A DNA stretch of 64,000 nt from assembly GCF_041381155.1 (NCBI RefSeq), contig NC_091137.1:17665765-17729764 (forward strand), read 5' to 3'. This DNA is from Argopecten irradians. Its lineage: Eukaryota; Mollusca; Bivalvia; Pectinida; Pectinidae. Below, piece by piece: positions 13,038 through 62,256 of the stretch. Numbering within the stretch: the first letter of the stretch is position 1; the number at the start of each line of letters is the position of its first letter. The notes beneath the pieces were generated by a model. It searched no databases and was not told the DNA's origin. It saw only the letters and a list, made by a program, of their open reading frames with translations. The translations under genes and the position numbers were made by a program.

Positions 13038-13275
13038 CTGATTTGTGCCATTTCGTCTTTTCGTCTTTTCGTCTTTTCGCCCCGAAAAGACGAGAATTAA
13101 GAAACCTTAAATTTCGTCTTTTCGTCTTTTCGCCCCGAAAAGACGAAAAACAAATCTTAATTTTCGTCTTTTCGTCTTTTCGTCTTTTCGCCCCGAAAAG
13201 AAGAAAATTAACAAACCTTAAATTTCGTCTTTCAAAAACAAACCTTAATTTTCGTCTTTTCGTCTTCCGGTCCTG
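13038..13275. repeat. CGTCTTTTCG palindrome array, left
   Basis: Repeated CGTCTTTTCG decamers arranged as hairpins CGTCTTTTCG-CCC-CGAAAAGACG, separated by AATTAAGAAACCTTAAATTT-type spacers. Open frames here read as an FRLFVFSP-like repeat and are not genes. Confidence 0.9.
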
Positions 13276-15009: not shown

Positions 15010-15432
15010 TTTGTAATTTTTCGGAGCGAAAAGGCGAAAAGACGAAAAGACGAAATTTAAGGTTTGTTAATTTTCGTCTTTTCGCCCCGAAAAGACGAAA
15101 ATTAAGGTTTGTTAATTTTCGTCTTTTCGGGGCGAAAAGACGAAAAGACGAAATTAAAGATTTGTTAATTTTCGTCTTTTCGCCCCGAAAAGACGAAACC
15201 ACGAAATTTAAGGTTTGTTAATTTTCGTCTTTTCGTGGCGAAAAGACGAAAAGACGAGATTTTTGAAGGCGAAAAGACGAAAATTAAAGACGCTAATTAG
15301 CGTGCTATACTTTCGTCTTTTCGCTGCGAAAAGACGATACTTTCGTCTTTTCGCTGCGAAAAGACGAAATTTAAATTTGTTAATTTTCGTCTTTTCGGGG
15401 CGAAAAGACGAAAAGACGAAATGGCATAAATC
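15010..15432. repeat. CGTCTTTTCG palindrome array, right
   Basis: About eight hairpins built from CGTCTTTTCG and its complement, with GGTTTGTTAATTT spacers. It mirrors the shorter array at 13038-13275 on the other side of the same foldback. Predicted frames here are repeat by-products. Confidence 0.9.
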
Positions 15433-20507: not shown

Positions 20508-20602
20508 TGGTTCCCGTGACCGTGCTTCAGTGTGAGGCCACTGGACACCAGGACATGGATGATGACAAACCGTTTGTATGCTCACAGAATGGTTGTGGAC
20601 AG
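20508..20602 (+). CDS. ATF2: ATF2 coding exon 1 (zinc finger, first half)
   Basis: Acceptor TTTCAG ends at 20507; donor CAG|GTATGT follows 20602. Translation is placed at ATG 20555. It encodes both finger cysteines (C9, C14) and ends in phase 0. Confidence 0.88.
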
Positions 20603-23600
20603 GTATGTATACCATTTTGAAGGTTATCAATAAGTCATGAGTTTTGCACATGTATCCAAAAAATGTCAAAATCCCAATTTCCAGGTCTTGATTTCTTATA
20701 CAAACTTGTAAGTAACAAACAGACTTAAATAAGAAATTATTAACGTAAAGGAGGAAATAACTTGTATTTTAACTTAAGGTGGTGCTTAGTTTTGAGACCT
20801 ATACCGAATCTGTATACAGATAAACCATTTGATTTCACACCGTTTTTCCTTTGTAAAAGATGATATTAGAATAATATTTTGATTGCCACTGGCATCGCTG
20901 ATCAAGCATAAACTATACTCATCTTTAGAACAATAATCGCTGTTTAATCATGTTTATATATCTAATTAATACAAAAAATGATATAACGGTAAAATAATTT
21001 TTGTTGCTTTTGGTGAATGTGCAATCAGTACTTCATTCCATATAGTACATAGTGCCAAGAAATTGTTTTCAGTATGCAATTAATTATTTTTAAAGGTTTT
21101 ATCTTGAAGTAAAATTTGAAGCTCAAACTTTTTAAAAGTAGTAATGGTGTTAAGTAACTGAAGAAAAATACTAAATCATCTGCTCCTATTTTTGATAGAG
21201 AAAAAATACCATTTGTTAGCAGTGGAGCATCTTTAAGAATGTAGCCCTATATATACTAATACACGATAAGTTATATTTAGATCACAATTATAAATAGATC
21301 TTTTAATTGATAGCTAATAGTTGTAGTATGTACCTATATTTACATATATGTTACTTTATTTGTATCATAAGAATAATACAATTCACTGTAATAATAGAAA
21401 AAAATAAAATACAATTAATTCTATATAAACTGTCATATTTATTGAAATTGAATATTGTGAATCTGTGACAGTTTTCAGAAAATGTGAAATATTATGTCAT
21501 TAATAACCAAATACTAATAATCATTTTGTGTCAGTTTAATACATCTTTAGAGAAATTCAGAGGCTGGGCTAGAGCATTTTATGTCTCTGTTTAGATAAAA
21601 TACCTGACTTTAATTAAGTACTGATATTTATATTTCAGCAATTTACCAATGAAGATCACCTTGCTGTGCATATGAGAAAACACGAGATGTCCTTGGCTTT
21701 AAACTTACAAAGTGGCACTCTGAATACTTTGACTCCAGGACGATCTCCAGGGCGATCACCTTGTGGTATGGGAGCAGCAGGACTCTTCCTAGGTAAGGAC
21801 TTCAATCTCGAGTGGTAACTCAGGACTCTTCCTAGGTAAGGACTTCAATCTCTAGTGGTAACTCAGGACTCTTCCTAGGTAAGGACTTCAATCTCTAGTG
21901 GTAACTCAGGACTCTTCCTAGGTAAGGACTTCAATCTCTAGTGGTAACTCAGGACTCTTCCTAGGTAAGGACTTCAATCTCTAGTGGTAACTCAGGACTC
22001 TTCCTAGTAAGGACTTCAATCTCTAGTGGTAACTCAGGACTCTTCCTAGGTAAGGACTTCAATCTCTAGTGGTAACTCAGGACTCTTCCTAGGTAAAGGA
22101 CTTCAATCTCTAGTGGTAACTCAGGACTCTTCCTAGGTAATGTACTCAATCTCTCACTCTCTAGGTAGGACTTCAATCTCTAGTGGTAACTCAGGACTCT
22201 TCCTAGGTAAGGACTTCAATCTCTAGTGGTAATCAGGACTCTTATAGGTAAGGACTTCAATCTCTAGTGGTAACTCAGGACTCTTCCTAGGTAAGGACTT
22301 CAATCTCTAGTGGTAACTCAGGACTCTTCCTAGGTAAGGACTTCAATCTCTAGTGGTAACTCAGGACTCTTCCTAGGTAAGGACTTCAATCTCTAGTGGT
22401 AACTCAGGACTCTTCCTAGGTAAGGACTTCAATCTCTAGTGGTAACTCAGGACTCTTCCTAGGTAAGGACTTCAATCTCTAGTGGTAACTCAGGACTCTT
22501 CCTAGGTAAGGACTTCAATCTCTAGTGGTAACTCAGGACTCTTCCTAGGTAAGGACTTCAATCTCTAGTGGTAACTCAGGACTCTTCCTAGGTAAGGACT
22601 TCAATCTCTAGTGGTAACTCAGGACTCTTCCTAGGTAAGGACTTCAATCTCTAGTGGTAACTCAGGACTCTTCCTAGGTAAGGACTTCAATCTCTAGTGG
22701 TAACTCAGGACTCTTCCTAGGTAAGGACTTCAATCTCTAGTGGTAACTCAGGACTCTTCCTAGGTAAGGACTTCAATCTCTAGTGGTAACTCAGGACTCT
22801 TCCTAGGTAAGGACTTCAATCTCTAGTGGTAACTCAGGACTCTTCCTAGGTAAGGACTTCAATCTCTAGTGGTAACTCAGGACTCTTCCTAGGTAAGGAC
22901 TTCAATCTCTAGTGGTAACTCAGGACTCTTCCTAGGTAAGGACTTCAATCTCTAGTGGTAACTCAGGACTCTTCCTAGGTAAGGACTTCAATCTCTAGTG
23001 GTAACTCAGGACTCTTCCTAGGTAAGGACTTCAATCTCTAGTGGTAACTCAGGACTCTTCCTAGGTAAGGACTTCAATCTCTAGTGGTAACTCAGGACTC
23101 TTCCTAGGTAAGGACTTCAATCTCTAGTGGTAACTCAGGACTCTTCCTAGGTAAGGACTTCAATCTCCTAGTGGTCAGGACCTTCCTAGGTAAGGACTTC
23201 AATCTCTAGTGGTAACTCAGGACTCTTCCTAGGTAAGGACTTCAATCTCAAGTGGTAACTCAGGACTCTTCCTAGGTAAGGACTTCAATCTCTAGTGGTA
23301 AGTCAGGACTTCAATCTCTAGTGGAAACTCAGGACTCTTCCTAGGTAAGGACTTCAATCTCTAGTGGTAACTCAGGACTCTTCCTAGGTAAGGACTTCAA
23401 TCTCTAGTGGTAACTCAGGACTCTTCCTAGGTAAGGACTTCAATCTCTAGTGGAAACTCAGGACTCTTCCTAGGTAAGGACTTCAATCTCTAGTGGTAAC
23501 TCAGGACTCTTCCTAGGTAAGGACTTCAATCTCTAGTGGTAACTCAGGACTCTTCCTAGGTAAGGACTTCAATCTCTAGTGGTAACTCAGGACTCTTCCT

Positions 23601-26600
23601 AGGTAAGGACTTCAATCTCTAGTGGTAACTCAGGACTCTTCCTAGGTAAGGACTTCAATCTCTAGTGGTAACTCATGGTCTGGACTCTTCCTAGGTAAGG
23701 ACTTCAATCTCTAGTGGTAACTCAGGACTCTTCCTAGGTAAGGACTTCAATCTCTAGTGGTAACTCAGGACTCTTCCTAGGTAAGGACTTCAATCTCTAG
23801 TGGTAACTCAGGACTCTTCCTAGGTAAGGACTTCAATCTCTAGTGGTAACTCAGGACTCTTCCTAGGTAAGGACTTCCAGTAGGACTCAACTCTAGTGGT
23901 AACTCAGGACTCTTCCTAGGTAAGGACTTCAATCTCTAGTGGTAACTCAGGACTCTTCCTAGGTAAGGACTTCAATCTCTAGTGGTAACTCAGGACTCTT
24001 CCTAGGTAAGGACTTCAATCTCTAGTGGTAACTCAGGACTCTTCCTAGGTAAGGACTTCAATCTCTAGTGGTAACTCAGGACTCTTCCTAGGTAAGGACT
24101 TCAATCTCTAGTGGTAACTCAGGACTCTTCTTCCTAGGTATCAGGACTTCAATCTCTAGTGGTAACTCAGGACTCTTCCTAGGTAAGGACTTCAATCTCT
24201 AGTGGTAACTCAGGACTCTTCCTAGGTAAGGACTTCAATCTCTAGTGGTACTCAGACTCCTAGGTAACTTCAATCTCTAGTGGTAACTCCCTTAACCTGC
24301 TCACTTTCTGATTTACATGTACATAATGCATTGGAATGCTATTGGCATGACGTCAAAGCAATATTGTTGTGACATCATAACATTATATAACAGTTCTGTG
24401 TATGCAGACTGTCTTGCCCTGGATAAGATTAATAGAATTTTCCTTTGGAAGTGGACCGACCCATGTTTGATTATTTTTCTTCAATACTTTAATATTGTCT
24501 TAGCGTCAACATCGCATAGATGCTTCAATGCGTCAAAATTAATGACTTTTTCCTACCTTAGTAATAGAGTTATCTTTTCCCTAGCAACCATGGGATATCC
24601 CTGTGAAGCATATGCATGGGAGAAATAAATATCTTAACCTCACCAGAAGTGTGTATTTCTCTGTCCAGAGCATAATTTTATTTATTTATTTTAGCTAAGG
24701 GCCAATCTCCCTGTGTTTATCTGATTGTCAACTCCTGTTGCATAGGGAAGATTTATAGAAACATGAAGTCAAACCTTATTACCGGTATATGCAAAAGTCG
24801 ATGAAACCATAGTAAAAAGAGTTACTCATACATTCAAAAGAAGTGAACATCCACAGCTAGTGTAAAACTTGGATCAGGACCATAAAAATGCTTTGGCTTT
24901 ATCGTAATATTATAAGTTATACCAGTAGTTCTAGTAAGCAGGGTTTAACTGTATGTGTAGTAGTTATTTACATCTTATATTGCAGATCAAACTCCGACAC
25001 CAACTAAGTTTCTTCGGAATTGTGAGGAGATTGGGCTGTTTCAGGAGCTGAAAAATCCTTTTGAAGAAGCATTTAAGAAGGCATTAGATACTGATGGTGC
25101 TGTGATACAGGTAAATTTAGATACCGCAGGTCCAGTGATTTAAAAATGTCACCAAATAAATATAAGAACTTCTTGACACCTAGGATAATTTCTTTAAAGT
25201 TTGAAAGTTAATGTTTCCATGATGAATTGATATGGAGACAAGATTGGAATTTATTGGTGAAAAAATAATCATTTAATTGAGAAAAAACTGGTGCAATCTT
25301 CTTACAGAGTGGAAGCCCATTTCCAGGGCCGAGCTCGAATGAACTCAACACTCCTATTCCTCATCAAACACCAAAAGTCATTCATGGAATCAAACGAGAG
25401 AAAGTAGACCCTGATGATCTCCTTGACAACAACATAGCTCTGAATCTAACCAAGCTGAAGACAATAGAACCAACATCTACGACAGATGATGACAGTGATG
25501 TCATTGTGGTATCTGTTGACGACCAATCCAAGACTGATGAGGCACCTAATGTCTCCATAGCGACCGGTGTCACTGTTGCTGGACCGACAGTTACATCTAA
25601 TTTGTTAGTGACAGCTGCACAGTCAACAACTGTGTCACCGTATGTATGACAAGAATTTGATCTCTGCTGTTCCTGATCTAAGCTTTTGTTGGTTTAAGTT
25701 AATGATGAGGATTTCATTAAACGAAGGCAAACATTTTTGTTTCAGTACAGTAGCTGTGAGGCGTGTTCAGAATTTCATCACCTTTAATTAGGAAATTCAT
25801 ACCTGCCTCAAACTCAGCGATTAATAGTGCTGTCATACTACACACCATAGTGTTGAAAAAAGTATCATGTATCAAAAAAACAAAATAGGTATATAAGGTT
25901 ACTATATTAGATTATTGTGTATTTGATATTCTGTTTTCAGGCCCAAGACAACCATTGGTGTGGCCACTCCTGTCATACAACCTCCACAGTTTGCCACATG
26001 TATGCAGGTGTTCCTCCAGCTTCCCTCGGGGCAGACGGTCCCCGTCCAAATTCCGGCCACCATCACCAACCCTGGGATACAGACTATACAAAACACAACA
26101 AACCAAGGGGTACAGCAGCCTATAGTCAACCAGGGCATACAACCAGTAGTGCAAACAATCACCAATCCGGGCTTACAGAATATTCCTAATGCCAATGTTC
26201 AGAACATCACAAATGCTGGTGTTCAGAATATTACTAATGCAGGAGTACAGATTGTGCAGGGTTCTCCGAGCATGATACAGAAAATCCCCACTCCTGCTGC
26301 AGTCACACCCGTCAGTCAACCCTCCCCCTCCGTCAGCCCCGCCCCTCAGTCCGTGCTGTCACACTCACCAAGTAAGCAGCAGCCATCTGGGTCTGGACTA
26401 GCCCAATCCTCTCTGACAAAACAGGTGAGATTTGTGATGGTGTTCATAACGCAGATTTAGTTCAGTCTTACTGTATAACATAACAGCATGGCTACTTTTT
26501 CGTAGATCCGGCCTTCAGATGTCACTTGCCGAAGGGTTAATATTTATCTTCTTTCATTGTCCTGTTTTACTGTTCGTGTCATATTGTGTAATCGTGTTCG

Positions 26601-29600
26601 TTTTGTGTGTCTTGATAAAGGGGCAGATCGCCTTGAAAATTTGACAATTTTTTTTATCCAAACGGTTTGAATTACTTCTTTGTCCCATGTATAACATGAA
26701 GTTTTCATTGCTGCTATCTTTCAGGGTTTTGAGCTTGGAAAATATTTTATGGGTTGAGGTATTCATGATTAGTGATGGAACTATTATTATACTATATTAT
26801 CAAAATTCGCTATGTAGAAATCACCAAAAAAAAACAACCCAAAAAACAAAAGTTTCTTTAAAAAAAATCATAATGATCAGGCTATGGTATTGATTAAAAC
26901 AAACCAGCATGTGATGTTTGTATTGCTTGTGTTTTACTTGACAAAAGAGTGCAAGTAAATTTTTACATGTTAATTAAAATTTTGACAGAGACTCAAAGCA
27001 GCCCTTCAGCAACAAACAGTACCATCACCAGGTTCACAGAAAGCATCATCCCCAGCCACCAGAGTGATACAAATGTCACCTGACCTAAACCCAGCCAATC
27101 AAATCACTGTAATTTCCAGTACGACGAATTACGCCCCAGGACCAAGTATGTCGCCAATGTCGGAGACGGGTGTCAGTATAGCCTCTGACGTGTCCTCCCC
27201 AGACACAGACATGCCGCTACTGTAAGTGCTGTTTAGAGTGTAATACTTGTGTGTATGTTTTTGCTTTATGTACCATAAACACCTGTTATAAAGGTAATGT
27301 AAAAACATGCAAGGTTTAGGAGCTGGAGGAAAGCTAGATTTCCATTAGAAAAGTTCACAGATCTATGATCGATACTTGTTGTCGTGTTATTAATGCACCA
27401 TATTAAAAATGTTTGGACCAAAACATTATGTTATAGAAAATCTTTCCAGTAAAACATATCAAAATACATATGAGGAAAGACAAAGTATCATTCTACCACA
27501 TCTTGAATATGACAATTTTTTTATCATTTTCGTATGTGAACAAAAGAGATTTTTTTTGCTCTTTTCTTTTACAGAAAACGAATTAAAAAAGATGAAGGCA
27601 ATTCGGATGATAGAAGAGTAAAGTTTTTAGAGAGAAATAGGTAAGTGTATAAAACTGGGTCCTGTATAATATTTCTTTTGATATTTGATTCTTGTCATGT
27701 GATTTGAAATGACTTTAAAGCTATGATGATATCATTATGAATTTGGGGGGAAAAAAATTAGTAATGAGTTTTTGATTACACATTAAAGTAAAAAATGCAT
27801 TTTTTTCTGTCTCCGCGATGAAATTGATGAGAGGGTAGCATGCGGGGAGCATATAAGGTTATCCGTGTCCATCCTGCCGTGTCACTGACTGCCCCATATT
27901 CTTTTCTTTATAGAAGTGGGCCGTTTATGTTGTACAGCCATTTCTTGTTTTCATTAAATATGAGCTAATGTATTCTCTGTTGATAGGGCTGCTGCTGCAC
28001 GTTGTCGGCAGAAAAGGAAGCACTGGATCACAAACCTGGAGAAAAAGGGGGATGAGCTTCAAATGGTCAACAATCGACTTATGGTAATAAGGCAAAAAAT
28101 TCCTCTGATTTGCTGGGTCATTTGAATTAAATCTGGTTATTCTACATATTTGCCAAGTTGTATAGAGAAATTACCTGTATTTGAGATTGAAATCCTGTGA
28201 TAGAACTGTAACAAAAAGAAACCATATCTTGACAAACTTGTAGATAAATTCATGTAAAATATTGGTCAGTAGAGGTGATCTTGTTTAGATGAAATGTAAT
28301 ACATTAATTTGTTGTTATGCTTTGTAAGTATGACCCTTAGATTACAATAGAATGCTATCTGTCTCACTACAATATGGAATTGTTAAAGGAAGATTTTAAT
28401 TGTATTGTTCATTTTGTCTAACACCGTCACCGTATTGCATATGTATATTATATCTTCTATAATAAAGTAAATAAAGACCACCTGGTATAAGCATATACAT
28501 GAAATACAGTCAAATCTGCCTATACTAGTATAAAGACAACCTGCTTAAAATGACCGCTTTCTCATGGCCCCAAATTGTTAATTTCAAAACAATTTGATCT
28601 GTGTGTATAAAGACTTCTTGACCATAAAGATCCCTTAGGTAGTCTTTATAGACATGTTGAACTGTATATGGGCCCAGTTTCATGAAAATTCCTTAAATTT
28701 AAGGAATCCCAACATAAAATTCTCCATAGGAAAGCATTACAGAATTTAAAGAAGGTTCCTTAACTTAAAAATGTTTCCTTAACTTTGGTAATGCTTTTCT
28801 ATGGGAAAACTTAAGTTAAGGAATCCCTTAAAGTTAAGGAATGTTCATGAAACTGGGCCATGGTCCAGGTACCAGAACACTGGAATAAAAAAAATTATAT
28901 GATACATGCTCCAATTAAACACCCCAACAATTGATCAAAGAACATTTATCTGACTTGATAAGATTGTTAAAATTAACATCATTATCCTGATGAAATATGA
29001 TGCTGTTTCAGTCAGAGATAAATGGACTGAAGAGTGAAGTGGCCCAGCTGAAGACATTACTGCTAGCTCACAAGGACTGTTCTGTCACTCTACAGCAAAA
29101 GTCACAGGGCCAGTTCCCATACCAAGCATGTATGTAGTAAAATAAGATAACAATCTTTGTGATCAGGTATTTCTATAACCTGTATATTTTCCCATTTTGG
29201 GACAGTTTGGCGTTAACACCTCAATTGTGTCATTCCTTTTGAGGTTTTGATCTCACTCCACACAACAATGCTAGAACACCTTATGTATGTTACACACCAA
29301 TTCATGTCAAAAAAATGACAACCAATGCATAAATATTTACATTACCACTGCATAGTACCTATATGTTGCTACTAAGCCCAATGTATGATATTTTCCAGTA
29401 TTAACATTGTCAGTTAGGCTCTGGCATACTAATACCACAATCAGAGTTCAAAAGGTCAAGAAATGACTGGGTTTTATAAATTCTCACGAAAATATTTGAA
29501 ATGTTGTACTTATCGTTATATATCCCGTTTTATAGAGGGGACTATTTCATCTATTGTTATTGTTATAAAGTCAGTTGTCAGTTGGAAACACGCCGGTTGT

Positions 29601-30636
29601 TATAAAGTCAGTTGTCAGTTGGAAACACGCCGGTTGTTATAAAGTCAGTTGTCAGTTGGAAACACGCCGGTTGTTATAAAGTCAGTTGTCAGTTGGAAAC
29701 ACGCCGGTTGATTGTTATAAAGTCAGTTGTCAGTTGGAAACACGCCGGTTGTTATAAAGTCAGTTGTCAGTTGGAACACCGGTGTTGGAACGCCGGTTGT
29801 TATAAAGTCAGTTGTCAGTTGGAAACACGCCGATTGTTATAAAGTCAGTTGTCAGTTGGAAACACGCCGGTTGTTATAAAGTCAGTTGTCAGTTGGAAAC
29901 ACACCGGAAGTTAAGTTGCATGTTAATACTGGAAAATATCATACATTGGGCTAATAGCAACATATAGGTACTGTGATGTGGTAATGTAAATATTGGGACA
30001 TGGACACTTACTAGGTTGAATACGGTAAAGTATTATTGAGGAAGACACCATGTATTGTCTTGGCAGCTACATGCCTGTTTCGATTATTCTTAAACATTAC
30101 AAAATTCTCTCAAAAATTATCATGTTATAGTACATTTGTAAAAAATAGTTTTCTTCATTCAGACTGTGGCAATTAATCTAGTCTCTCTATGTTACATTTC
30201 CAGATTGACTCTCCGCTGAGACCCTACTTTATAAAGAGTGTTTTCACTAAAAGTAAAACATGGAAGATACTGAGCATCCTAAACACATACCTATCACATG
30301 CATATGAAACACACATGCACACAGAGGAAGGCAACTTTAATTTACTACAGTGTTTTGATAGGACATTAAACAATCCTGTATCTTTCTTTGTTTTATGTTC
30401 CAGTCTCCATGTTAGAGACTGCTGTGCCTGGTGCTGGTGAGGCGGGCGCTATCCTAGAAACAGATGCATCATCTGCTACAACAGGACCTTCGACTGCCAC
30501 CTGGGTGACAGCTTCGTCCCCTACAGTGATAAAAACGTCGTTTAGCACAGGAACTGCCATAGCAGGACAAAAGACAATAACAATCATACCAAAAGTAGTC
30601 AAAGCAGAAAGTACAAAACCTATCCGGAAAAAATGA
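20555..30636 (+). CDS. ATF2: ATF2/ATF7-type bZIP transcription factor (10 coding exons)
   Basis: Joined exons: 20555-20602, 21639-21792, 24986-25110, 25308-25639, 25941-26424, 26989-27221, 27575-27640, 27987-28083, 29012-29129, 30404-30636. All junctions are GT-AG and in phase, giving 629 residues plus stop; human ATF2 is about 505. The C2H2 finger uses C9, C14, H27, H31. A JNK-docking-like KHEMSLAL follows. DQTPTPTKF is at 68-76, with T70 and T72 matching the human T69/T71 activation sites. FLQLPSGQTVPVQIP lies at 244-258. The basic region RNRAAAARCR is at 479-488 and zipper leucines are L498, L505, L512, L519, L526. The family binds CRE/AP-1 sites as homodimers or with Jun, under JNK/p38 control, in the nucleus. 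The start MDDDKPF matches human MSDDKPF; the upstream frame is open to the exon edge, so an earlier start is possible. Confidence 0.95.
20930..21236 (+). mobile_element. TTAA-type MITE, family M1, copy 3 (left end missing)
   Basis: The right end GTGGAGCATCT|TTAA and interior words (TACTTCATTCCATATAG, GAAGCTCAAACTTTTT) match the copies at 1412-1800 and 5103-5438. The left terminus is not recognisable. Located in an ATF2 intron. Confidence 0.75.
21639..21792 (+). CDS. ATF2: ATF2 coding exon 2 (zinc finger, second half)
   Basis: Acceptor TATTTCAG precedes 21639. It encodes QFTNEDHLAVHMRKHEM, then an extra segment with GRSPGRSP, ending GLFL plus one base (phase 1). The donor CCTAG|GTAAGG is the first of the 43-bp repeat units that follow. 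Confidence 0.93.
21779..24289 (+). repeat. 43-bp minisatellite carrying the ATF2 5' splice site
   Basis: About 58 units of AAGGACTTCAATCTCTAG + TGGTAACTCAGGACTCTTCC + TAGGT. The first unit overlaps the end of exon 2, so GGACTCTTCCTAG|GTAAGG, the authentic exon end and donor, is repeated in nearly every unit. A few units are irregular (near 22138-22165, 23164-23183, 23670-23690, 23875-23890 and the last two). Each unit also has a weak acceptor-like TTCAATCTCTAG 23 bases before the donor. Confidence 0.97.
24290..24985 (+). other. Rest of ATF2 intron 2 after the array
   Basis: No exon was recognised. The frame at 24317-24628 has no family resemblance. A perfect CRE lies at 24348-24355. Confidence 0.6.
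24348..24355. promoter_or_regulatory. Perfect CRE palindrome TGACGTCA in ATF2 intron
   Basis: TGACGTCA is the consensus site for ATF/CREB factors and lies just after the splice-donor array. Other copies in the window are near 8119, 8585, 45750 and 51623, so chance or repeat origin cannot be excluded. Confidence 0.35.
24986..25110 (+). CDS. ATF2: ATF2 coding exon 3 (TPTP activation segment)
   Basis: Acceptor TTGCAG before 24986, donor CAG|GTAAAT after 25110. It encodes DQTPTPTKFLRNCEEIGLF and the following FEEAFKKA helix, the p38/JNK-regulated activation domain. Enters in phase 1 and leaves in phase 0. Confidence 0.96.
25308..25639 (+). CDS. ATF2: ATF2 coding exon 4 (linker with acidic stretch)
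   Basis: Acceptor CTTACAG before 25308, donor CC|GTATGT after 25639. The linker is poorly conserved, with SP/TP sites (SGSPFPGP), an IKREKVDPDD patch (a possible sumoylation-type IKRE site) and a DDDSDVIVVSVDD stretch that resembles a SUMO-interacting motif. Ends in phase 2. Confidence 0.88.
25941..26424 (+). CDS. ATF2: ATF2 coding exon 5 (Q/P-rich region with peptide repeats)
   Basis: Acceptor TTTTCAG, donor ACAG|GTGAGA. It encodes VFLQLPSGQTVPVQIPATI, which aligns with the human LPNGQTMPVAIPASI segment. At 263-323 it has at least seven degenerate NxG[IVL]Q repeats (NPGIQ, NQGVQ, NQGIQ, NPGLQ, NANVQ, NAGVQ, NAGVQ). It ends in a Pro/Ser-rich tract. Confidence 0.93.
26989..27221 (+). CDS. ATF2: ATF2 coding exon 6
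   Basis: Acceptor TTGACAG, donor CT|GTAAGT. It begins RLKAALQQ, matching the human RLKAALTQQ, and continues as Ser/Pro-rich linker ending DTDMPLL. Leaves in phase 2. Confidence 0.93.
27575..27640 (+). CDS. ATF2: ATF2 coding exon 7 (start of basic region)
   Basis: A 66-bp exon between TTTTACAG and AG|GTAAGT. It encodes KRIKKDEGNSDDRR and VKFLERN, the basic patch and start of the DNA-contacting helix. Confidence 0.95.
27987..28083 (+). CDS. ATF2: ATF2 coding exon 8 (basic region and first zipper heptads)
   Basis: Acceptor GTTGATAG, donor ATG|GTAATA. It encodes RAAAARCRQKRKHW with the invariant Cys and Arg, then zipper leucines L498, L505 and L512. Confidence 0.96.
28671..28859. mobile_element. 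Small palindromic MITE in ATF2 intron
   Basis: Inverted ends GGCCCAGTTTCATGAA and TTCATGAAACTGGGCC; the interior repeats CCTTAA words symmetrically. ATG on both sides may be a 3-bp target duplication. Confidence 0.75.
29012..29129 (+). CDS. ATF2: ATF2 coding exon 9 (end of zipper)
   Basis: Acceptor GTTTCAG, donor GCAT|GTATGT. It encodes SEINGLKSEVAQLKTLLLAH and KDCSVT, matching the human LLLAHKDCPVT. If this donor is not used the frame stops two codons later (TGT ATG TAG). Confidence 0.95.
29332..29994. mobile_element. TIR element enclosing a 37-bp minisatellite
   Basis: Perfect or near-perfect ~74-bp inverted ends (29332-29408 and 29921-29994; AATATTTACATTACCAC and GTGGTAATGTAAATATT). The centre holds about nine 37-bp repeats. 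No coding frame. The design resembles bivalve MITEs with internal tandem cores. It lies in the last ATF2 intron. Confidence 0.85.
29562..29908 (+). repeat. 37-bp minisatellite, ~9 units
   Basis: Unit GTTATAAAGTCAGTTGTCAG + TTGGAAACACGCCGGTT; one unit is shortened near 29775 and one gains ATT near 29710. Confidence 0.95.
30404..30636 (+). CDS. ATF2: ATF2 coding exon 10 (C-terminal tail) and stop
   Basis: Acceptor GTTCCAG before 30404. The phase-1 join gives FSMLETAVPG, then a Ser/Thr/Ala-rich tail with KTITIIPKVV, ending RKK and TGA at 30634. The tail is not strongly conserved; the exact junction rests on phase and the splice signal. Confidence 0.82.
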
Positions 30637-51800: not shown

Positions 51801-52084
51801 AGTATAATTGTCTGTAGGGAGGCTCGAGATGACATTAAATATCAATATAATTGTGATTGTTACAATTTATTAACAGTCTGTGTAATTGATAGTGTGATTA
51901 TAAATGTCGAATAAATATCCAAACATCAAAACCATTGTATTTTGTTTTCACTGTATATATGGCAACCTTCTCACTCGGCTTCTGGAGAAAATGACGACTT
52001 GTTTTATACACAAAAAGAGTCATTTGGTATGGCATATACGCATTTGCCATCTCTACTACAAGCTAGATTTGCTGTTGGTTGACT
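48810..52084. other. AT-rich spacer downstream of TMUB
   Basis: After the candidate poly(A) signal at 49289 no exon, RNA gene or complete element was recognised. A G-rich tract is at 50331-50365 and a perfect CRE at 51623-51630. The small open frames here look random. Confidence 0.55.
51591..51626 (+). repeat. 36-bp direct repeat, left of the 10-kb array
   Basis: GAGTTATCTGCCCTACAGGT + AGGTATTGATTGTGAC; 33 of 36 bases match 63941-63976 in the same orientation. Confidence 0.8.
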
Positions 52085-55000
52085 GGCCACAATGACAGAG
52101 TATTCAAGGTGCTCTTTGTGTTGAGAGTGGCCATAGTAACGGAGTAGTCAAGGTGCTCTTTGTTAGCTATAGTAACAGAATAGTCAAGGTGATCTTTGTT
52201 GAGAGTGGCTACAATAACGGAGTAATCAAGGTGCTGTTTGTTGAGAGTGGTCACAGTAACAGAGTAGTCAAGGTACTCTTTGTTGAGAGTGGTCACAGTA
52301 ACGGAGTAGTCAAGGTGCTCTTTGTTGAGAGTGGCCACAGTAACGGAGTAGTCAAGGTGCTCTTTGTTGAGAGTGGCCACAGTAATAGAGTAGTCAAGGT
52401 GCTCTTTGTTGAGAGTGGCCACAGTAACGGAGTAGTCAAGGTGCTCTTTGTTGAGAGTGGCCACAGAAATAGAGTAGTCAAGGTACTCTTTGTTGAGAGT
52501 GGTCACAGTAACAGAGTAGTCAAGGTGCTCTTTGTTGAGAGTGGCCACAGTAATAGAGTAGTCAAGGTACTCTTTGTTGAGAGTGGTCACAGTAACAGAG
52601 TAGTCAAGGTGCTCTTTGTTGAGAGTGGTCACAGTAACAGAGTAGTCAAGGTACTCTTTGTTGAGAGTGGTCACAGTAACAGAGTAGTCAAGGTGCTCTT
52701 TGTTGAGAGTGGTCACAGTAACAGAGTAGTCAAGGTGCTCTTTGTTGAGAGTGGTCACAGTAACAGAGTAGTCAAGGTGCTCTTTGTTGAGAGTGGTCAC
52801 AGTAACAGAGTAGTCAAGGTGCTCTTTGTTGAGAGTGGCCACAGTAACAGAGTAGTCAAGGTGCTCTTTGTTGAGAGTGGTCACAGTAACAGAGTAGTCA
52901 AGGTGCTCTTTGTTGAGAGTGGCCACAGTAACAGAGTAGTCAAGGTGCTCTTTGTTGAGAGTGGTCACAGTAACAGAGTAGTCAAGGTGCTCTTTGTTGA
53001 GAGTGGTCACAGTAACAGAGTAGTCAAGGTGCTCTTTGTTGAGAGTGGCCACAGTAAATAGAGTAGTCAGGTGCTCTTTGTTGAGAGTGGTCACAGTAAC
53101 AGAGTAGTCAAGGTGCTCTTTGTTGAGAGTGGCCACAGTAACAGAGTAGTCAAGGTGCTCTTTGTTGAGAGTGGTCACAGTAACAGAGTAGTCAAGGTGC
53201 TCTTTGTTGAGAGTGGCTACAGTAACAGAGTAGTCAAGGTGCTCTTTGTTGAGAGTGGCCACAGTAACAGAGTAGTCAAGGTGCTCTTTGTTGAGAGTGG
53301 TCACAGTAACAGAGTAGTCAAGGTGCTCTTTGTTGAGAGTGGTCACAGTAACAGAGTAGTCAAGGTGCTCTTTGTTGAGAGTGGCCACAGTAACAGAGTA
53401 GTCAAGGTGCTCTTTGTTGAGAGTGGCCACAGTAACAGAGTAGTCAAGGTGCTCTTTGTTGAGAGTGGCCACAGTAATAGAGTAGTCAAGGTACTCTTTG
53501 TTGAGAGTGGTCACAGTAACAGAGTAGTCAAGGTGCTCTTTGTTGAGAGTGGCCACAGTAACAGAGTAGTCAAGGTGCTCTTTGTTGAGAGTGGTCACAG
53601 TAACAGAGTAGTCAAGGTGCTCTTTGTTGAGAGTGGTCACAGTAACAGAGTAGTCAAGGTGCTCTTTGTTGAGAGTGGTCACAGTAACAGAGTAGTCAAG
53701 GTGCTCTTTGTTGAGAGTGGTCACAGTAACAGAGTAGTCAAGGTGCTCTTTGTTGAGAGTGGTCACAGTAACAGAGTAGTCAAGGTGCTCTTTGTTGAGA
53801 GTGGCCACAGTAACAGAGTAGTCAAGGTGCTCTTTGTTGAGAGTGGTCACAGTAACAGAGTAGTCAAGGTGCTCTTTGTTGAGAGTGGCTATAGTAACAG
53901 AGTAGTCAAGGTGCTCTTTGTTGAGAGTGGCCACAGTAACAGAGTAGTCAAGGTGCTCTTTGTTGAGAGTGGCCATAGTAACAGAGTAGTCAAGGTGCTC
54001 TTTGTTGAGAGTGGCTATAGTAACAGAGTAGTCAAGGTGCTCTTTGTTGAGAGTGGCCACAGTAACAGAGTAGTCAAGGTGCTCTTTGTTGAGAGTGGCC
54101 ATAGTAACAGAGTAGTCAAGGTGCTCTTTGTTGAGAGTGGCCATAGTAACAGAGTAGTCAAGGTGCTCTTTGTTGAGAGTGCCATAGTAACAGAGTAGTC
54201 AAGGTGCTCTTTGTTGAGAGTGGTCATAGTAACAGAGTAGTCAAGGTGCTCTTTGTTGAGAGTGGCCATAGTAACAGAGTAGTCAAGGTGCTCTTTGTTG
54301 AGAGTGGCCACAGTAACAGAGTAGTCAAGGTGCTCTTTGTTGAGAGTGGCCACAGTAACAGAGTAGTCAAGGTGCTCTTTGTTGAGAGTGGTCATAGTAA
54401 CAGAGTAGTCAAGGTGCTCTTTGTTGAGAGTGGCCACAGTAACAGAGTAGTCAAGGTGCTCTTTGTTGAGAGTGGCCATAGTAACAGAGTAGTCAAGGTA
54501 CTCTTTGTTGAGAGTGGTCACAGTAACAGAGTAGTCAAGGTGCTCTTTGTTGAGAGTGGTCATAGTAACAGAGTAGTCAAGGTGCTATTTGTTGAGAGTG
54601 GCCACAGTAACAGAGTAGTCAAGGTGCTCTTTGTTGAGAGTGGTCACAGTAACAGAGTAGTCAAGGTGCTCTTTGTTGAGAGTGGTCACAGTAACAGAGT
54701 AGTCAAGGTGCTCTTTGTTGAGAGTGGCCACAGTAACAGAGTAGTCAAGGTACTCTTTGTTGAGAGTGGCCACAGTAACAGAGTAGTCAAGGTGCTCTTT
54801 GTTGAGAGTGGTCACAGTAACAGAGTAGTCAAGGTGCTCTTTGTTGAGAGTGGCCACAGTAACAGAGTAGTCAAGGTGCTCTTTGTTGAGAGTGGTCACA
54901 GTAACAGAGTAGTCAAGGTGCTCTTTGTTGAGAGTGGCCATAGTAACAGAGTAGTCAAGGTACTCTTTGTTGAGAGTGGCCACAGTAACAGAGTAGTCAA

Positions 55001-58000
55001 GGTGCTCTTTGTTGAGAGTGGCCATAGTAACAGAGTAGTCAAGGTGCTCTTTGTTGAGAGTGGCCATAGTAACAGAGTAGTCAAGGTGCTCTTTGTTTAG
55101 AGTGGCTATAGTAACAGAGTAGTCAAGGTGCTCTTTGTTGAGAGTGGCCACAGTAACAGAGTAGTCAAGGTGCTCTTTGTTGAGAGTGGCCACAGTAACA
55201 GAGTAGTCAAGGTGCTCTTTGTTGAGAGTGGCCATAGTAACAGAGTAGTCAAGGTGCTCTTTGTTGAGAGTGGCCACAGTAACAGAGTAGTCAAGGTGCT
55301 CTTTGTTGAGAGTGGCCACAGTAACAGAGTAGTCAAGGTGCTCTTTGTTGAGAGTGGCTATAGTAACAGAGTAGTCAAGGTGCTCTTTGTTGAGAGTGGT
55401 CATAGTAACAGAGTAGTCAAGGTGCTCTTTGTTGAGAGTGGCCATAGTAACAGAGTAGTCAAGGTGCTCTTTGTTGAGAGTGGCCATAGTAACAGAGTAG
55501 TCAAGGTGCTCTTTGTTGAGAGTGGCCACAGTAACAGAGTAGTCAAGGTGCTCTTTGTTGAGAGTGGCCATAGTAACAGAGTAGTCAAGGTGCTCTTTGT
55601 TGAGAGTGGCCATAGTAACAGAGTAGTCAAGGTGCTCTTTGTTGAGAGTGGCTATAGTAACAGAGTAGTCAAGGTGCTCTTTGTTGAGAGTGGCCATAGT
55701 AACAGAGTAGTCAAGGTGCTCTTTGTTGAGAGTGGCTATAGTAACAGAGTAGTCAAGGTGCTCTTTGTTGAGAGTGGCCATAGTAACAGAGTAGTCAAGG
55801 TGCTCTTTGTTGAGAGTGGCCATAGTAACAGAGTAGTCAAGGTGCTCTTTGTTGAGAGTGGCCATAGTAACAGAGTAGTCAAGGTGCTCTTTGTTGAGAG
55901 TGGCCATAGTAACAGAGTAGTCAAGGTGCTCTTTGTTGAGAGTGGCTATAGTAACAGAGTAGTCAAGGTGCTCTTTGTTGAGAGTGGCCATAGTAACAGA
56001 GTAGTCAAGGTGCTCTTTGTTGAGAGTGGCCATAGTAACAGAGTAGTCAAGGTGCTCTTTGTTGAGAGTGGCATAGTAACAGAGTAGTCAAGGTGCTCTT
56101 TGTTGAGAGTGGTCACAGTAACAGAGTAGTCAAGGTGCTCTTTGTTGAGAGTGGTCATAGTAACAGAGTAGTCAAGGTGCTCTTTGTTGAGAGTGGCTAC
56201 AGTAACAGAGTAGTCAAGGTGCTCTTTGTTGAGAGTGGCTATAGTAACAAAGTAGTCAAGGTGCTCTTTGTTGAGAGTGGCCATAGTAACAGAGTAGTCA
56301 AGGTGCTCTTTGTTGAGAGTGGCCATAGTAACAGAGTAGTCAAGGTGCTCTTTGTTGAGAGTGGCCACAGTAACAGAGTAGTCAAGGTGCTCTTTGTTGA
56401 GAGTGGTACAGTAACAGAGTAGTCAAGGTGCTCTTTGTTGAGAGTGGCCAAGTAACAGAGTAGTCAAGGTGCTCTTTGTTGAGAGTGGCCACAGTAACAG
56501 AGTAGTCAAGGTGCTCTTTGTTGAGAGTGGCCACAGTAACAGAGTAGTCAAGGTGCTCTTTGTTGAGAGTGGCCATAGTAACAGAGTAGTCAAGGTGCTC
56601 TTTGTTGAGAGTGGCACAGTAACAGAGTAGTCAAGGTGCTCTTTGTTGAGAGTGGCATAGTAACAGAGTAGTCAAGGTGCTCTTTGTTGAGAGTGGCTCA
56701 TAGTAACAGAGTAGTCAAGGTGCTCTTTGTTGAGAGTGGTCACAGTAACAGAGTAGTCAAGGTGCTCTTTGTTGAGAGTGGCACAGTAACAGAGTAGTCA
56801 AGGTGCTCTTTGTTGAGAGTGGCCACAGTAACAGAGTAGTCAAGGTGCTCTTTGTTGAGAGTGGCACAGTAACAGAGTAGTCAAGGTGCTCTTTGTTGAG
56901 AGTGGCTATAGTAACAGAGTAGTCAAGGTGCTCTTTGTTGAGAGTGGCTATAGTAACAGAGTAGTCAAGGTACTCTTTGTTGAGAGTGGCTATAGAAACA
57001 GAGTAGTCAAGGTGCTCATTGTTGGAGAGTGGTCCATAGTAACAGAGTAGTCAAGGTGCTCTTTGTTGAGAGTGGCCACAGTAACAGAGTAGTCAAGGTG
57101 CTCTTTGTTGAGAGTGGCACAGTAACAGAGTAGTCAAGGTGCTCTTTGTTGAGAGTGGTCATAGTAACAGAGTAGTCAAGGTACTCTTTGTTGAGAGTGG
57201 CTATAGAAACAGAGTAGTCAAGGTGCTCTTTGTTGAGAGTGGTCATAGTAACAGAGTAGTCAAGGTGCTCTTTGTTGAGAGTGGCTACAGTAACAGAGTA
57301 GTCAAGGTGCTCTTTGTTGAGAGTGGCCACAGTAACAGAGTAGTCAAGGTGCTCTTTGTTGAGAGTGGTCACAGTAACAGAGTAGTCAAGGTGCTCTTTG
57401 TTGAGAGTGGCCAAGTAACAGAGTAGTCAAGGTGCTCTTTGTTGAGAGTGGCCATAGTAACAGAGTAGTCAAGGTGCTCTTTGTTGAGAGTGGCAAGTAA
57501 CAGAGTAGTCAAGGTGCTCTTTGTTGAGAGTGGTCACAGTAACAGAGTAGTCAAGGTGCTCTTTGTTGAGAGTGGCCACAGTAACAGAGTAGTCAAGGTG
57601 CTCTTTGTTGAGAGTGGCTATAGTAACAGAGTAGTCAAGGTGCTCTTTGTTGAGAGTGGCTATAGTAACAGAGTAGTCAAGGTGCTCTTTGTTGAGAGTG
57701 GCTATAGTAACAGAGTAGTCAAGGTGCTCTTTGTTGAGAGTGGCCATAGTAACAGAGTAGTCAAGGTGCTCTTTGTTGAGAGTGGCCATAGTAACAGAGT
57801 AGTCAAGGTGCTCTTTGTTGAGAGTGGCATAGTAACAGAGTAGTCAAGGTGCTCTTTGTTGAGAGTGGCCATAGTAACAGAGTAGTCAAGGTGCTCTTTG
57901 TTGAGAGTGGCTATAGTAACAGAGTAGTCAAGGTACTCTTTGTTGAGAGTGGTCATAGTAACAGTGTAGTCAAGGTGCTCTTTGTTGAGAGTGGTCATAG

Positions 58001-61000
58001 TAACAGAGTAGTCAAGGTGCTCTTTGTTGAGAGTGGCCATAGTAACAGAGTAGTCAAGGTGCTCTTTGTTGAGAGTGGCTATAGTAACAGAGTAGTCAAG
58101 GTGCTCTTTGTTGAGAGTGGCCATAGTAACAGAGTAGTCAAGGTGCTCTTTGTTGAGAGTGGCTATAGTAACAGAGTAGTCAAGGTGCTCTTTGTTGAGA
58201 GTGGCTATAGTAACAGAGTAGTCAAGGTGCTCTTTGTTGAGAGTGGCCATAGTAACAGATTAATCAAGGTGCTCTTTGTGTTGAGTGGCCATAGTAAAAC
58301 AGAGTAATCAAGGTGCTCTTTGTTGAGAGTGGCTATAGTAACAGAGTAGTCAAGGTGCTCTTTGTTGAGAGTGGCTATAGTAACAGAGTAGTCAAGGTGC
58401 TCTTTGTTGAGAGTGGCCAGAAGTAACAGAGTAGTCAAGGTGCTCTTTGTTGAGAGTGGCCATAGTAACAGAGTAGTCAAGGTGCTCTTTGTTGAGAGTG
58501 GCATAGTAACAGAGTAGTCAAGGTGCTCTTTGTTGAGAGTGGCATAGTAACAGAGTAGTCAAGGTGCTCTTTGTTGAGAGTGGCCACAGTAACAGAGTAG
58601 TCAAGGTGCTCTTTGTTGAGAGTGGCCATAGTAACAGAGTAGTCAAGGTGCTCTTTGTTGAGAGTGGCAAGTAACAGAGTAGTCAAGGTGCTCTTTGTTG
58701 AGAGTGGCATAGTAACAGAGTAGTCAAGGTGCTCTTTGTTGAGAGTGGCATAGTAACAGAGTAGTCAAGGTGCTCTTTGTTGAGAGTGGCCACAGTAACA
58801 GAGTAGTCAAGGTGCTCTTTGTTGAGAGTGGCTATAGTAACAGAGTAGTCAAGGTGCTCTTTGTTGAGAGTGGCCATAGTAACAGAGTAGTCAAGGTGCT
58901 CTTTGTTGAGAGTGGCTATAGTAACAGAGTAGTCAAGGTGCTCTTTGTTGAGAGTGGCCATAGTAACAGAGTAGTCAAGGTGCTCTTTGTTGAGAGTGGT
59001 CAAGTAACAGAGTAGTCAAGGTGCTCTTTGTTGAGAGTGGCTATAGTAACAGTAGTCAAGGTGCTCTTTGTTGAGAGTGGCCAAGTAACAGAGTAGTCAA
59101 GGTGCTCTTTGTTGAGAGTGGCTATAGTAACAGAGTAGTCAAGGTGCTCTTTGTTGAGAGTGGCTATAGTAACAGAGTAGTCAAGGTGCTCTTTGTTGAG
59201 AGTGGCATAGTAACAGAGTAGTCAAGGTGCTCTTTGTTGAGAGTGGCCATAGTAACAGAGTAGTCAAGGTGCTCTTTGTTGAGAGTGGCCACAGTAACAG
59301 AGTAGTCAAGGTGCTCTTTGTTGAGAGTGGTCACAGTAACAGAGTAGTCAAGGTGCTCTTTGTTGAGAGTGGCTATAGTAACAGAGTAGTCAAGGTGCTC
59401 TTTGTTGAGAGTGGTCTGTTGAAGACAGTAACAGAGTAGTCAAGGTGCTCTTTGTTGAGAGTGGCCATAGTAACAGAGTAGTCAAGGTGCTCTTTGTTGA
59501 GAGTGGCTATAGTAACAGAGTAGTCAAGGTGCTCTTTGTTGAGAGTGGCCATAGTAACAGAGTAGTCAAGGTGCTCTTTGTTGAGAGTGGCCATAGTAAC
59601 AGAGTAGTCAAGGTGCTCTTTGTTGAGAGTGGCATAGTAACAGAGTAGTCAAGGTGCTCTTTGTTGAGAGTGGCAAGTAACAAGTAGTCAAGGTGCTCTT
59701 TGTTGAGAGTGGCACAGTAACAGAGTAGTCAAGGTGCTCTTTGTTGAGAGTGGCCACAGTAACAGAGTAGTCAAGGTGCTCTTTGTTGAGTGGCTAAGTA
59801 GTAACAGAGTAGTCAAGGTGCTCTTTGTTGAGAGTGGCCATAGTAACAGAGTAGTCAAGGTGCTCTTTGTTGAGAGTGGCCACAGTAACAGAGTAGTCAA
59901 GGTGCTCTTTGTTGAGAGTGGCCATGTAACAGAGTAGTCAAGGTGCTCTTTGTTGAGAGTGGCTACAGTAACAGAGTAGTCAAGGTGCTCTTTGTTGAGA
60001 GTGGCTACAGTAACAGAGTAGTCAAGGTGCTCTTTGTTGAGAGTGGCTATAGTAACAGAGTAGTCAAGGTGCTCTTTGTTGAGAGTGGCTATAGTAACAG
60101 AGTAGTCAAGGTGCTCTTTGTTGAGAGTGGCTATAGTAACAGAGTAGTCAAGGTGCTCTTTGTTGAGAGTGGCTATAGTAACAGAGTAGTCAAGGTCTCT
60201 TTGTTGAGAGTGGCTATAGTAACAGAGTAGTCAAGGTGCTCTTTGTTGAGAGTGGCTATAGTAACAGAGTAGTCAAGGTGCTCTTTGTTGAGAGTGGCTA
60301 TAGTAACAGAGTAGTCAAGGTGCTCTTTGTTGAGAGTGGCTATAGTAACAGAGTAGTCAAGGTGCTCTTTGTTGAGAGTGGCTATAGTAACAGAGTAGTC
60401 AAGGTGCTCTTTGTTGAGAGTGGCTATAGTAACAGAGTAGTCAAGGTGCTCTTTGTTGAGAGTGGTCATAGTAACAGAGTAGTCAAGGTGCTATTTGTTG
60501 AGAGTGGTCACAGTAACAGAGTAGTCAAGGTACTCTTTGTTGAGAGTGGTCAAGGTGCTCTTTGTTGAGAGTGGCCATTGTAACAGAGTAGTCAAGGTGC
60601 TCTTTGTTGAGAGTGGCCATAGTAACAGAGTAGTCAAGGTGCTCTTTGTTGAGAGTGGCCATAGTAACAGAGTACTCAAGGTGCTCTTTGTTGAGAGTGG
60701 TCACAGTAACAGAGTAGTCAAGGTGCTCTTTGTTGAGAGTGGCTACAGTAACAGAGTAGTCAAGGTGCTCTTTGTTGTGAGTGGCTACAGTAACAGTGTA
60801 GTCAAGGTGCTCTTTGTTGTGAGTGGCTACAGTAACAGTGTAGTCAAGGTGCTCTTTGTTGAGAGTGGCTATAGTAACAGAGTAGTCAAGGTGCTCTTTG
60901 TTGAGAGTGGCTATTTTAGTAACAGAGTAGTCAAGGTGCTCTTTGTTGAGAGTGGCTATAGTAACAGAGTAGTCAAGGTGCTCTTTGTTGAGAGTGGCTA

Positions 61001-62256
61001 TAGTAACAGAGTAGTCAAGGTGCTCTTTGTTGAGAGTGGCATAGTAACAGAGTAGTCAAGGTGCTCTTTGTTGAGAGTGGTCATAGTAACAGAGTAGTCA
61101 AGGTGCTCTTTGTTGAGAGTGGCATAGTAACAGAGTAGTCAAGGTGCTCTTTGTTGAGAGTGGCCATAGTAACAGAGTAGTCAAGGTGCTCTTTGTTGAG
61201 AGTGGCACAGTAACGGAGTAGTCAAGGTGCTCTTTGTTGAGAGTGGCCACAGTAACGAAGTAGTCAAGGTTCTCTTTGTTGAGAGTGGCCACAGTTACGA
61301 AGTAGTCAAAGTGCTCTTTGTTGAGAGTGGCCACAGTAACGGGGTAGGCAAGGTTCTCTTTGTTGAGAGTGGCCACAGTAACGAAGTAGTCAAGGTGCTC
61401 TTTGTTGAGAGTGGCCACAGTAACGGTGTAGTCAAGGTGCTCTTTGTTGAGAGTGGCTACAGTAACAGAGTAGTCAAGGTGCTCTTTGTTGAGAGTGGCC
61501 ACAGTTACGAAGTAGTCAAGGTGCTCTTTGTTGAGAGTGGCCACAGTTATGTAGTAGTCAAGGTGCTCTTTGTTGAGAGTGGCTATAGTAACAGAGTAGT
61601 CAAGGTGCTCTTTGTTGAGAGTGGCACAGTTAGAAGTAGTCAAGGTGCTCTTTGTTGAGAGTGGCACAGTTACGAAGTAGTCAAGGTTCTCTTTGTTGAG
61701 AGTGGCACAGTTACGAAATAGTCAAGGTGCTCTTTGTTGAGAGTGGCACAGTAAAGTAGTCAAGGTCTCTTTGTTGAGAGTGGCCACAGTTACGAAATAG
61801 TCAAGGTGCTCTTTGTTGAGAGTGGCCACAGTTACGAAATAGTCAAGGTGCTCTTTGTTGAGAGTGGCCACAGTAACGAGCAGTCAAGGTTCTCTTTGTT
61901 GAGAGTGGCCACAGCAACGGAGTAGTCAAGGTGCTCTTTGTTGAGAGTGGCCACAGTAACGAAGTAGTCAAGGTTCTCTTTGTTGAGAGTGGCCACAGTT
62001 ACGAAGTAGTCAAAGTGCTCTTTGTTGAGAGTAGCCACAGTAACGGGGTAGGCAAGGTTCTCTTTGTTGAGAGTGGCCACAGTTACGAAGTAGTCAAAGT
62101 GCTTTTTGTTGAGAGTGGCCACAGTAATGGGGTAGGCAAGGTGCTATTGGTTGAGTGTGGCCACAGTAACAAAGTAGTCAATTTTCTCTTTGTTTAAAGT
62201 GGTTGGGTGGCCAAAGCACCTTAGTAGTCGAGGTGCTGTTGGTTGAGAGAGGTTCC
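52085..62256. repeat. 42-bp satellite-like array, ~240 units, ~10 kb
   Basis: Consensus GTAACAGAGTAGTCAAGGTG + CTCTTTGTTGAGAGTGGCCA + TA. Variation is concentrated in the GGYYAYAGT window. Local subtypes dominate: GGTCACA at 52.2-53.9 kb, GGCCATA at 54-56 kb, GGCTATA at 59.9-61 kb, and ACGAAGTAG / GGTTCTC variants after 61.2 kb. One-base losses at the same window become frequent after 56.4 kb. The unit is 14 codons without a stop in one plus and two minus frames, so long open frames (up to 693 codons) arise automatically. The frames are repeatedly broken by indels, have no non-repetitive domain, and are not annotated as genes. Confidence 0.97.

Follow-up and report, generated by a model that had tools for sequence, protein, structure and literature searches.

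The window analysed here, 64,000 nucleotides of the genome of the bivalve Argopecten irradians (NCBI RefSeq assembly GCF_041381155.1, contig NC_091137.1, designated C4, positions 17,665,765 to 17,729,764 of the forward strand), carries an ATF2 gene in which a 43-bp minisatellite starts inside a coding exon and continues, unit after unit, into the following intron. The exon upstream of this array matches PDB chains of the ATF-2 zinc finger (6zr5, 1e-5; 1bhi, 6.5e-5; phmmer), and the downstream exon, encoding DQTPTPTKFLRNCEEIGLFQEL, matches the ATF-2 chain 8ypf (1.9e-8, both exons serving as the query). The intron between them splits an Asp codon, the upstream exon ending in phase 1 and the downstream one adding AT.

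The ATF2 array, its donor and its origin

Tandem Repeats Finder and wrap-around alignment resolve the array into 59 units plus one base, a copy number that is the value in a single assembly; the preliminary description of about 58 copies at 21779-24289 is thereby confirmed, with the array now placed at 21778-24289. As many as 41 units are equal to the consensus, those numbered 13-32 forming an uninterrupted perfect stretch, and the 18 variant ones differ mostly by single indels or local rearrangements. Unit 1 has CTCGAG instead of CTCTAG, a substitution private to it. All copies of TAGGTAAGG (52) and of TTCAATCTCTAG (54) lie inside the array; with 52 copies of the former in 59 units, the earlier statement that the exon end and the donor recur in nearly every unit holds. 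The tetranucleotide AGGT occurs 57 times in the array, at a spacing of exactly 43 in 44 of 56 cases; by cut-offs of our own setting, 51 of these sites rate as strong donors and as fair acceptors.

The array spans the predicted exon–intron boundary, 15 bp of exon end and the donor standing in unit 1 and being repeated thereafter; since the homology already begins, on its left side, within the coding exon, the exon end belongs to the repeated unit. The unit-1 donor TAG/GTAAGG (21792/21793; the slash marks the splice position here and below) scores 10.35, with a U1 duplex of -9.9 kcal/mol, and a second candidate of the same phase 27 bases upstream, GTG/GTATGG (21765/21766), scores 6.34, with -4.7 kcal/mol. 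All donor and acceptor scores follow the Shapiro-Senapathy tables, and the duplexes were computed with the U1 5' start ATACTTACCTG, present in four of the five U1 loci examined and not found in the fifth on the strand read. Because of its higher strength, and because LFL-DQTPTP here fits IVA-DQTPTP of ATF-2 in the phmmer alignment, the site at 21792/21793 is likely the authentic ATF2 donor. As for the U1 small nuclear RNA genes themselves, 30 of the genome's 42 scored matches form a cluster at C7:7837784-7877915, mostly at a spacing of ~1.18 kb.

Concerning the origin of the unit, the whole genome (845.8 Mb in 1508 contigs) was searched. A 30-mer of the unit gave 49 matches at up to three mismatches, all 49 inside the array, and a 256-bp query from the array retrieved the array alone. 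By our own standard, the unit is thus locus-specific and not a dispersed satellite; with no match outside the array, it most likely arose locally, at ATF2. A second haplotype or a paralogue was also considered and is not indicated by the genome search, in which neither the two ATF2 exons (next match at E 0.84) nor the full-length right flank of the array was found a second time. One scan of viral contigs yielded no ATF2 orthologues.

Donor-motif arrays elsewhere in the genome

The genome was further searched for a pattern of three copies of a 7-letter word at array-like spacing, the reversed word serving as control. The donor word AGGTAAG gave 27575 such matches (14415 forward and 13160 reverse) against 4204 for the reversed word (1844 and 2360), a 6.6-fold excess, and AGGTGAG gave 12079 (5897 and 6182) against 4300 (2595 and 1705), i.e. 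2.8-fold. For the permuted word AGGATAG the numbers were 8967 (4685 and 4282) and 7978 (3723 and 4255). The acceptor-like word TTTACAG also exceeded its control 1.7-fold, with 22238 (10683 and 11555) against 12906 (7037 and 5869), which leaves a donor-specific seeding mechanism unsupported.

Arrays were then counted by hand on contig 1 (C1) among the first ~100 matches listed. There were five for AGGTAAG in 2.89 Mb versus seven for AGGATAG in 27.6 Mb (binomial p 0.003), one of the latter being the AGGTAAG array F4, and 14 for AGGTGAG in 27.4 Mb (p 0.09). Flanks were inspected on the exon side for all five AGGTAAG arrays and for 12 of the 14 AGGTGAG ones, two of low complexity being omitted. 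Six of these 17 arrays open at the end of a coding exon with protein-family support, in some cases weak, and three more (L067, L073 and L074) at an exon end recognised by eye from an acceptor and an open frame, one of them with a weak Pfam match (0.25).

Among the six, the guanylate cyclase exon ends in IRIGCHTG/ (PF00211, E 1.7e-5, above the Pfam cut-off); AGGTAAG occurs 22 times in the array region, and the next catalytic exon lies downstream of the array. The SRCR exon, ending in ...HTEDAGVICQ/ (Pfam 3.6e-12), is likewise above the cut-off and the UreF exon just above it (8.3e-5), whereas the laminin G exon, ending in YELGSGAANMRSALPVNDGQVHRIKVTR/ (0.0035), is below it. So is the acyltransferase exon, ending in ...FMFYFYRFWR/, with PF01757 at E 2.5e-4 for two joined exons and no family match when the last exon was searched alone. 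The sixth exon, ending in ...GFNSGVINEPSQ/, had no Pfam match, and all ten PDB sequences that it matched (E up to 10, best 0.1) are of SLC2. The consensus of the acyltransferase array encodes, by eye, HRYWR, the present exon having YRFWR.

In the exon-end arrays 8 to 27 exon bases are common to the next unit (F4 excluded). Their automatically assigned unit lengths are not all multiples of three; the assigned length is wrong for F4, and for some other arrays it is possibly a multiple of the true one. As for the control, six AGGATAG arrays other than F4, with 10 of 12 edges in reach, offered 46 open segments of at least 20 residues, and none of the 19 segments searched had a Pfam match below E 0.05 (best 0.083). 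The flanks of two of the three TTTACAG arrays listed were also taken; one of the two (L089) stops at what is probably the start of an exon, itself with no Pfam match. Both kinds of boundary therefore seem to be involved, as they are in the mirages of lancelets—minisatellite-like tandem duplications of exon–intron boundaries, 5' as well as 3', with units of about 10-160 bp (PMC3087553, PMC3902484).

Based on the above results, the genome appears to hold other arrays like that of ATF2. Minisatellites may have been seeded at random and then tolerated; such seeding would allow several hundred junction arrays, a figure obtained by rough scaling of one window (seven minisatellites, ~10 introns) to the genome. 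The features are collected in Table 1.

Table 1. Features of the ATF2 locus (positions in the window) and exon-associated arrays on contig C1
Feature	Position	Strand	Basis or loci
ATF2 first coding exon piece, MDDDKPFVCSQNGCGQ, donor CAG/GTATGT	20555..20602	+	sequence and translation
ATF2 exon QFTNEDHLAVHMRKHEMSL...GAAGLFL, end phase 1	21639..21792	+	phmmer matches; translation
Alternative weaker in-phase donor GTG/GTATGG	21763..21771	+	scoring
15 bp coding exon end opening unit 1	21778..21792	+	sequence; computed overlap
43-bp minisatellite, 59 units, 41 perfect	21778..24289	+	repeat finding; unit without match elsewhere in genome
Presumed authentic donor TAG/GTAAGG	21790..21798	+	scoring; one of 51 AG/GT sites strong as donor, fair as acceptor
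Rest of intron; matches elsewhere limited to short parts	24290..24985	+	genome search
Next ATF2 exon DQTPTPTKFLRNCEEIGLFQELKNPFEEAFKKALDTDGAVIQ	24986..25110	+	phmmer, ATF-2 chain 8ypf
54-bp array repeating acceptor, ending at probable exon start (mirror case)	C1:1195219-1195812		L088, L089
42-bp array, ~30 units, opening at guanylate cyclase exon end	C1:1266022-1267248		L047-L054, L058, L059
41-bp array at acyltransferase exon end	C1:2890630 onwards		L055-L057
Donor-motif arrays at SRCR, laminin G, SLC2-like and UreF exon ends	contig C1		L065, L068, L070, L075

The window contains further repeats. A 37-bp array (29560-29907) occupies the central part of an ATF2 intron further downstream, distant from the exon edges, and a 24-bp in-frame repeat (26174-26251) is found within an ATF2 coding exon (NVQNITNAGVQNITNAG). 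Outside these, there are a 42-bp array of ~242 copies with strong GC skew (52084-62202) and repeats of the TTTCGTCTTTTCG type at 13059-13232 and 15033-15262, in opposite orientation and ~2 kb apart.

Donor choice and the explanations of the array

Splicing in one step from any of the 50 later strong donors leads to a stop after 75 residues. The exon end may, however, be read as an acceptor, too: in CTCTTCCTAG/GTAAGG, the part CTCTTCCTAG scores 5.04, a value equalled or exceeded by 8.7% of the 2618 AGs on the plus strand of the window (two large arrays excluded) and lying within the range of eight acceptors of this ATF2 gene (-0.43 to 11.32). By predicted scores, the AGGT thus has both acceptor (5.04) and donor (10.35) quality, as expected of a dual-specific site. 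The previously proposed acceptor-like TTCAATCTCTAG does score as one (2.85), although the exon end itself is the better candidate. If the exon end doubles as an acceptor, splicing could remove pieces of 43n bases and restore the identical junction, and a second splicing step could in principle repair the products of late donors; the earlier view that later donors truncate the protein therefore stands for one-step splicing but not if a second step follows. In a toy simulation with random pairing, 64% of 1500 runs yielded the correct mRNA at a minimum intron of 60 nt, the share being 99.8% at 40 nt and 49% at 120 nt, as against 2% for a one-step random donor choice; it illustrates the logic only, site strength, order and kinetics being left out.

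The ATF2 array is most likely a mirage, i.e. an exon–intron junction that was duplicated locally, expanded into the intron and is nearly neutral, with the first donor in use. Its position, the content of its unit, the absence of that unit elsewhere and the existence of other exon-end arrays in the genome are directly seen. A local tandem duplication straddling the junction would have founded the minisatellite, which would then have expanded into the intron; the spliceosome would use the first donor, beside the real exon, and the remaining units would leave with the intron, so that the array would be nearly neutral. Each AG/GT could act as acceptor or donor, and excisions of 43n bases may add to the tolerance. 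Similar arrays at other exon ends, here and in lancelets (PMC3087553), favour tolerated repeats as the explanation.

Several points weigh against this interpretation. The use of the first donor is deduced, and with 52 identical TAGGTAAGG sites some use of late ones is to be expected; the donor at 21765, if used, would leave the entire array intronic. The triple counts are numbers of matches, not of arrays, and long arrays weigh more in them—in one motif search, all 100 matches listed (of 269) fell in a single array. As for the 17 arrays examined, no exon could be recognised beside eight of them, and of the nine exon-edge cases three were identified by eye.

That the AG/GT sites work as a ladder of dual-specific sites, by which the intron would leave stepwise, 43n bases at a time, and the products of late donors would be repaired in a second step, seems unlikely, even though the acceptor score of the exon end, a branch-like TGGTAAC noted by eye 17-18 nt upstream of the end of the AG, the simulated gain over random donor choice and the use of tandem dual-specific sites in human UBC (PMC10809524) would suit it. 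The simulation takes no account of site strength, order and kinetics, and acceptor strength at exon-end arrays is not above chance: scores of at least 5.0 were found in 6 of 10 such arrays (three identified by eye) versus 4 of 12 AGGTRAG sites from other parts of the window (p 0.39 in Fisher's test), so that selection on the acceptor half of AG/GT is unsupported. It is highly unlikely that the array regulates ATF2, with competing donors slowing splicing or diverting it to the 75-residue zinc-finger product or to decay, and with array length tuning the output; the truncation predicted for all 50 later donors would agree with it, while comparable exon-end arrays in unrelated genes fit a general repeat process. 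A dense U1-binding platform suppressing premature intronic polyadenylation would be a very improbable function, despite the 52 sites each predicted to pair with U1 at -9.9 kcal/mol, the complete absence of AATAAA from the array and a three-unit RNA that folds worse than 200 of 200 of its own shuffles (z +2.8), for the intron measures only 3.2 kb, 2.5 kb of it being the array itself, and neither need nor selection is indicated. The U1 platform, the decoy and the length-tuned output of the preliminary description are thus left unsupported, nothing computed here indicating a function.

Two further explanations concern the array as such. An assembly artefact, inflating the copy number or turning read errors into variant units, would accord with inter-unit differences that are mostly indels and mostly singletons; it is nevertheless very improbable, given that minisatellites are frequent in the window (seven of period 23-60), that several units carry distinct rearrangements and that units 37 and 40 have one substitution in common, and it would leave the first junction unaffected. 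A satellite or transposon that brought the array into the intron, with the donor there by chance, is scarcely credible: parts of the right flank do match dispersed repeats, yet the unit begins inside the exon, and such an origin was rejected because the unit matches nowhere else in the genome.

Known systems and the meaning of the array

Mirages have been described in lancelets at Adh3, the globins BflGb6 and BflGb9, troponin C and PGBD5, with splicing reported as undisturbed (PMC3087553, PMC3902484), and in globin mirages the cluster boundaries escape homogenisation (PMC3087553). The ATF2 array resembles them in that its tandem units straddle an exon boundary and copy the splice signals; it differs in the number of units—about 59, where the two haplotypes of BflGb6 have 3 and 6 and PGBD5 has 2-7—and in that its normal splicing is a prediction, that of the lancelet mirages a reported observation. 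Its regularly spaced AGGT, readable as donor or acceptor, recalls the tandem arrays of dual-specific splice sites in human UBC and VCX3A (PMC10809524), although the UBC units are coding, in frame and 228 nt long, while the ATF2 unit is intronic, 43 nt long and contains stops, its acceptor role being a predicted one. The topic of recursive splicing is also taken up in a 2026 preprint (PMC13105047).

In the AGGT model of intron gain by tandem duplication, including the potato RdRp case (PMC4974935), a duplication over the exon–intron boundary likewise brings ready-made splice signals; there a new intron is created, whereas the ATF2 array lengthens an existing one. Internal tandem repeats of human duplicated genes, too, are minisatellites at exon–intron boundaries and can yield new introns, but they are reported to alter transcripts (PMC2812944), an effect not indicated for ATF2. 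Beyond lancelets and human genes, no literature on junction minisatellites was recognised, in a search with terms that did not include ATF2 and with subscription papers mostly outside its scope. The ATF2 array is thus a member of an already known type of repeat; what is new is the sample of exon-end arrays in this genome.

It is conceivable, and suggested here tentatively, that junction minisatellites form a large class in this animal, in hundreds of genes or more, hidden from selection by the choice of the exon-proximal donor and by dual-specific re-splicing, which would take out repeats whatever their length, and able to build introns and extend them from their edges, with ATF2 as one extreme case. 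With 52 identical 9-base donors in a row, ATF2 offers a test, set up by nature, of the way in which the spliceosome chooses a donor: should the first one be used nearly every time, the sequence of the site cannot be the rule, and where it stands with respect to the exon has to count. The wider value lies in the sample of exon-end arrays, which could make donor choice testable in one animal. If many such arrays exist, as the sample suggests, the RNA reads of a single individual could test that choice at many loci of differing unit length and could reveal whether splicing permits repeats to grow at intron edges; should the large class be real, the junction arrays would form a library, provided by nature, from which to learn how a single donor is picked among many identical ones.

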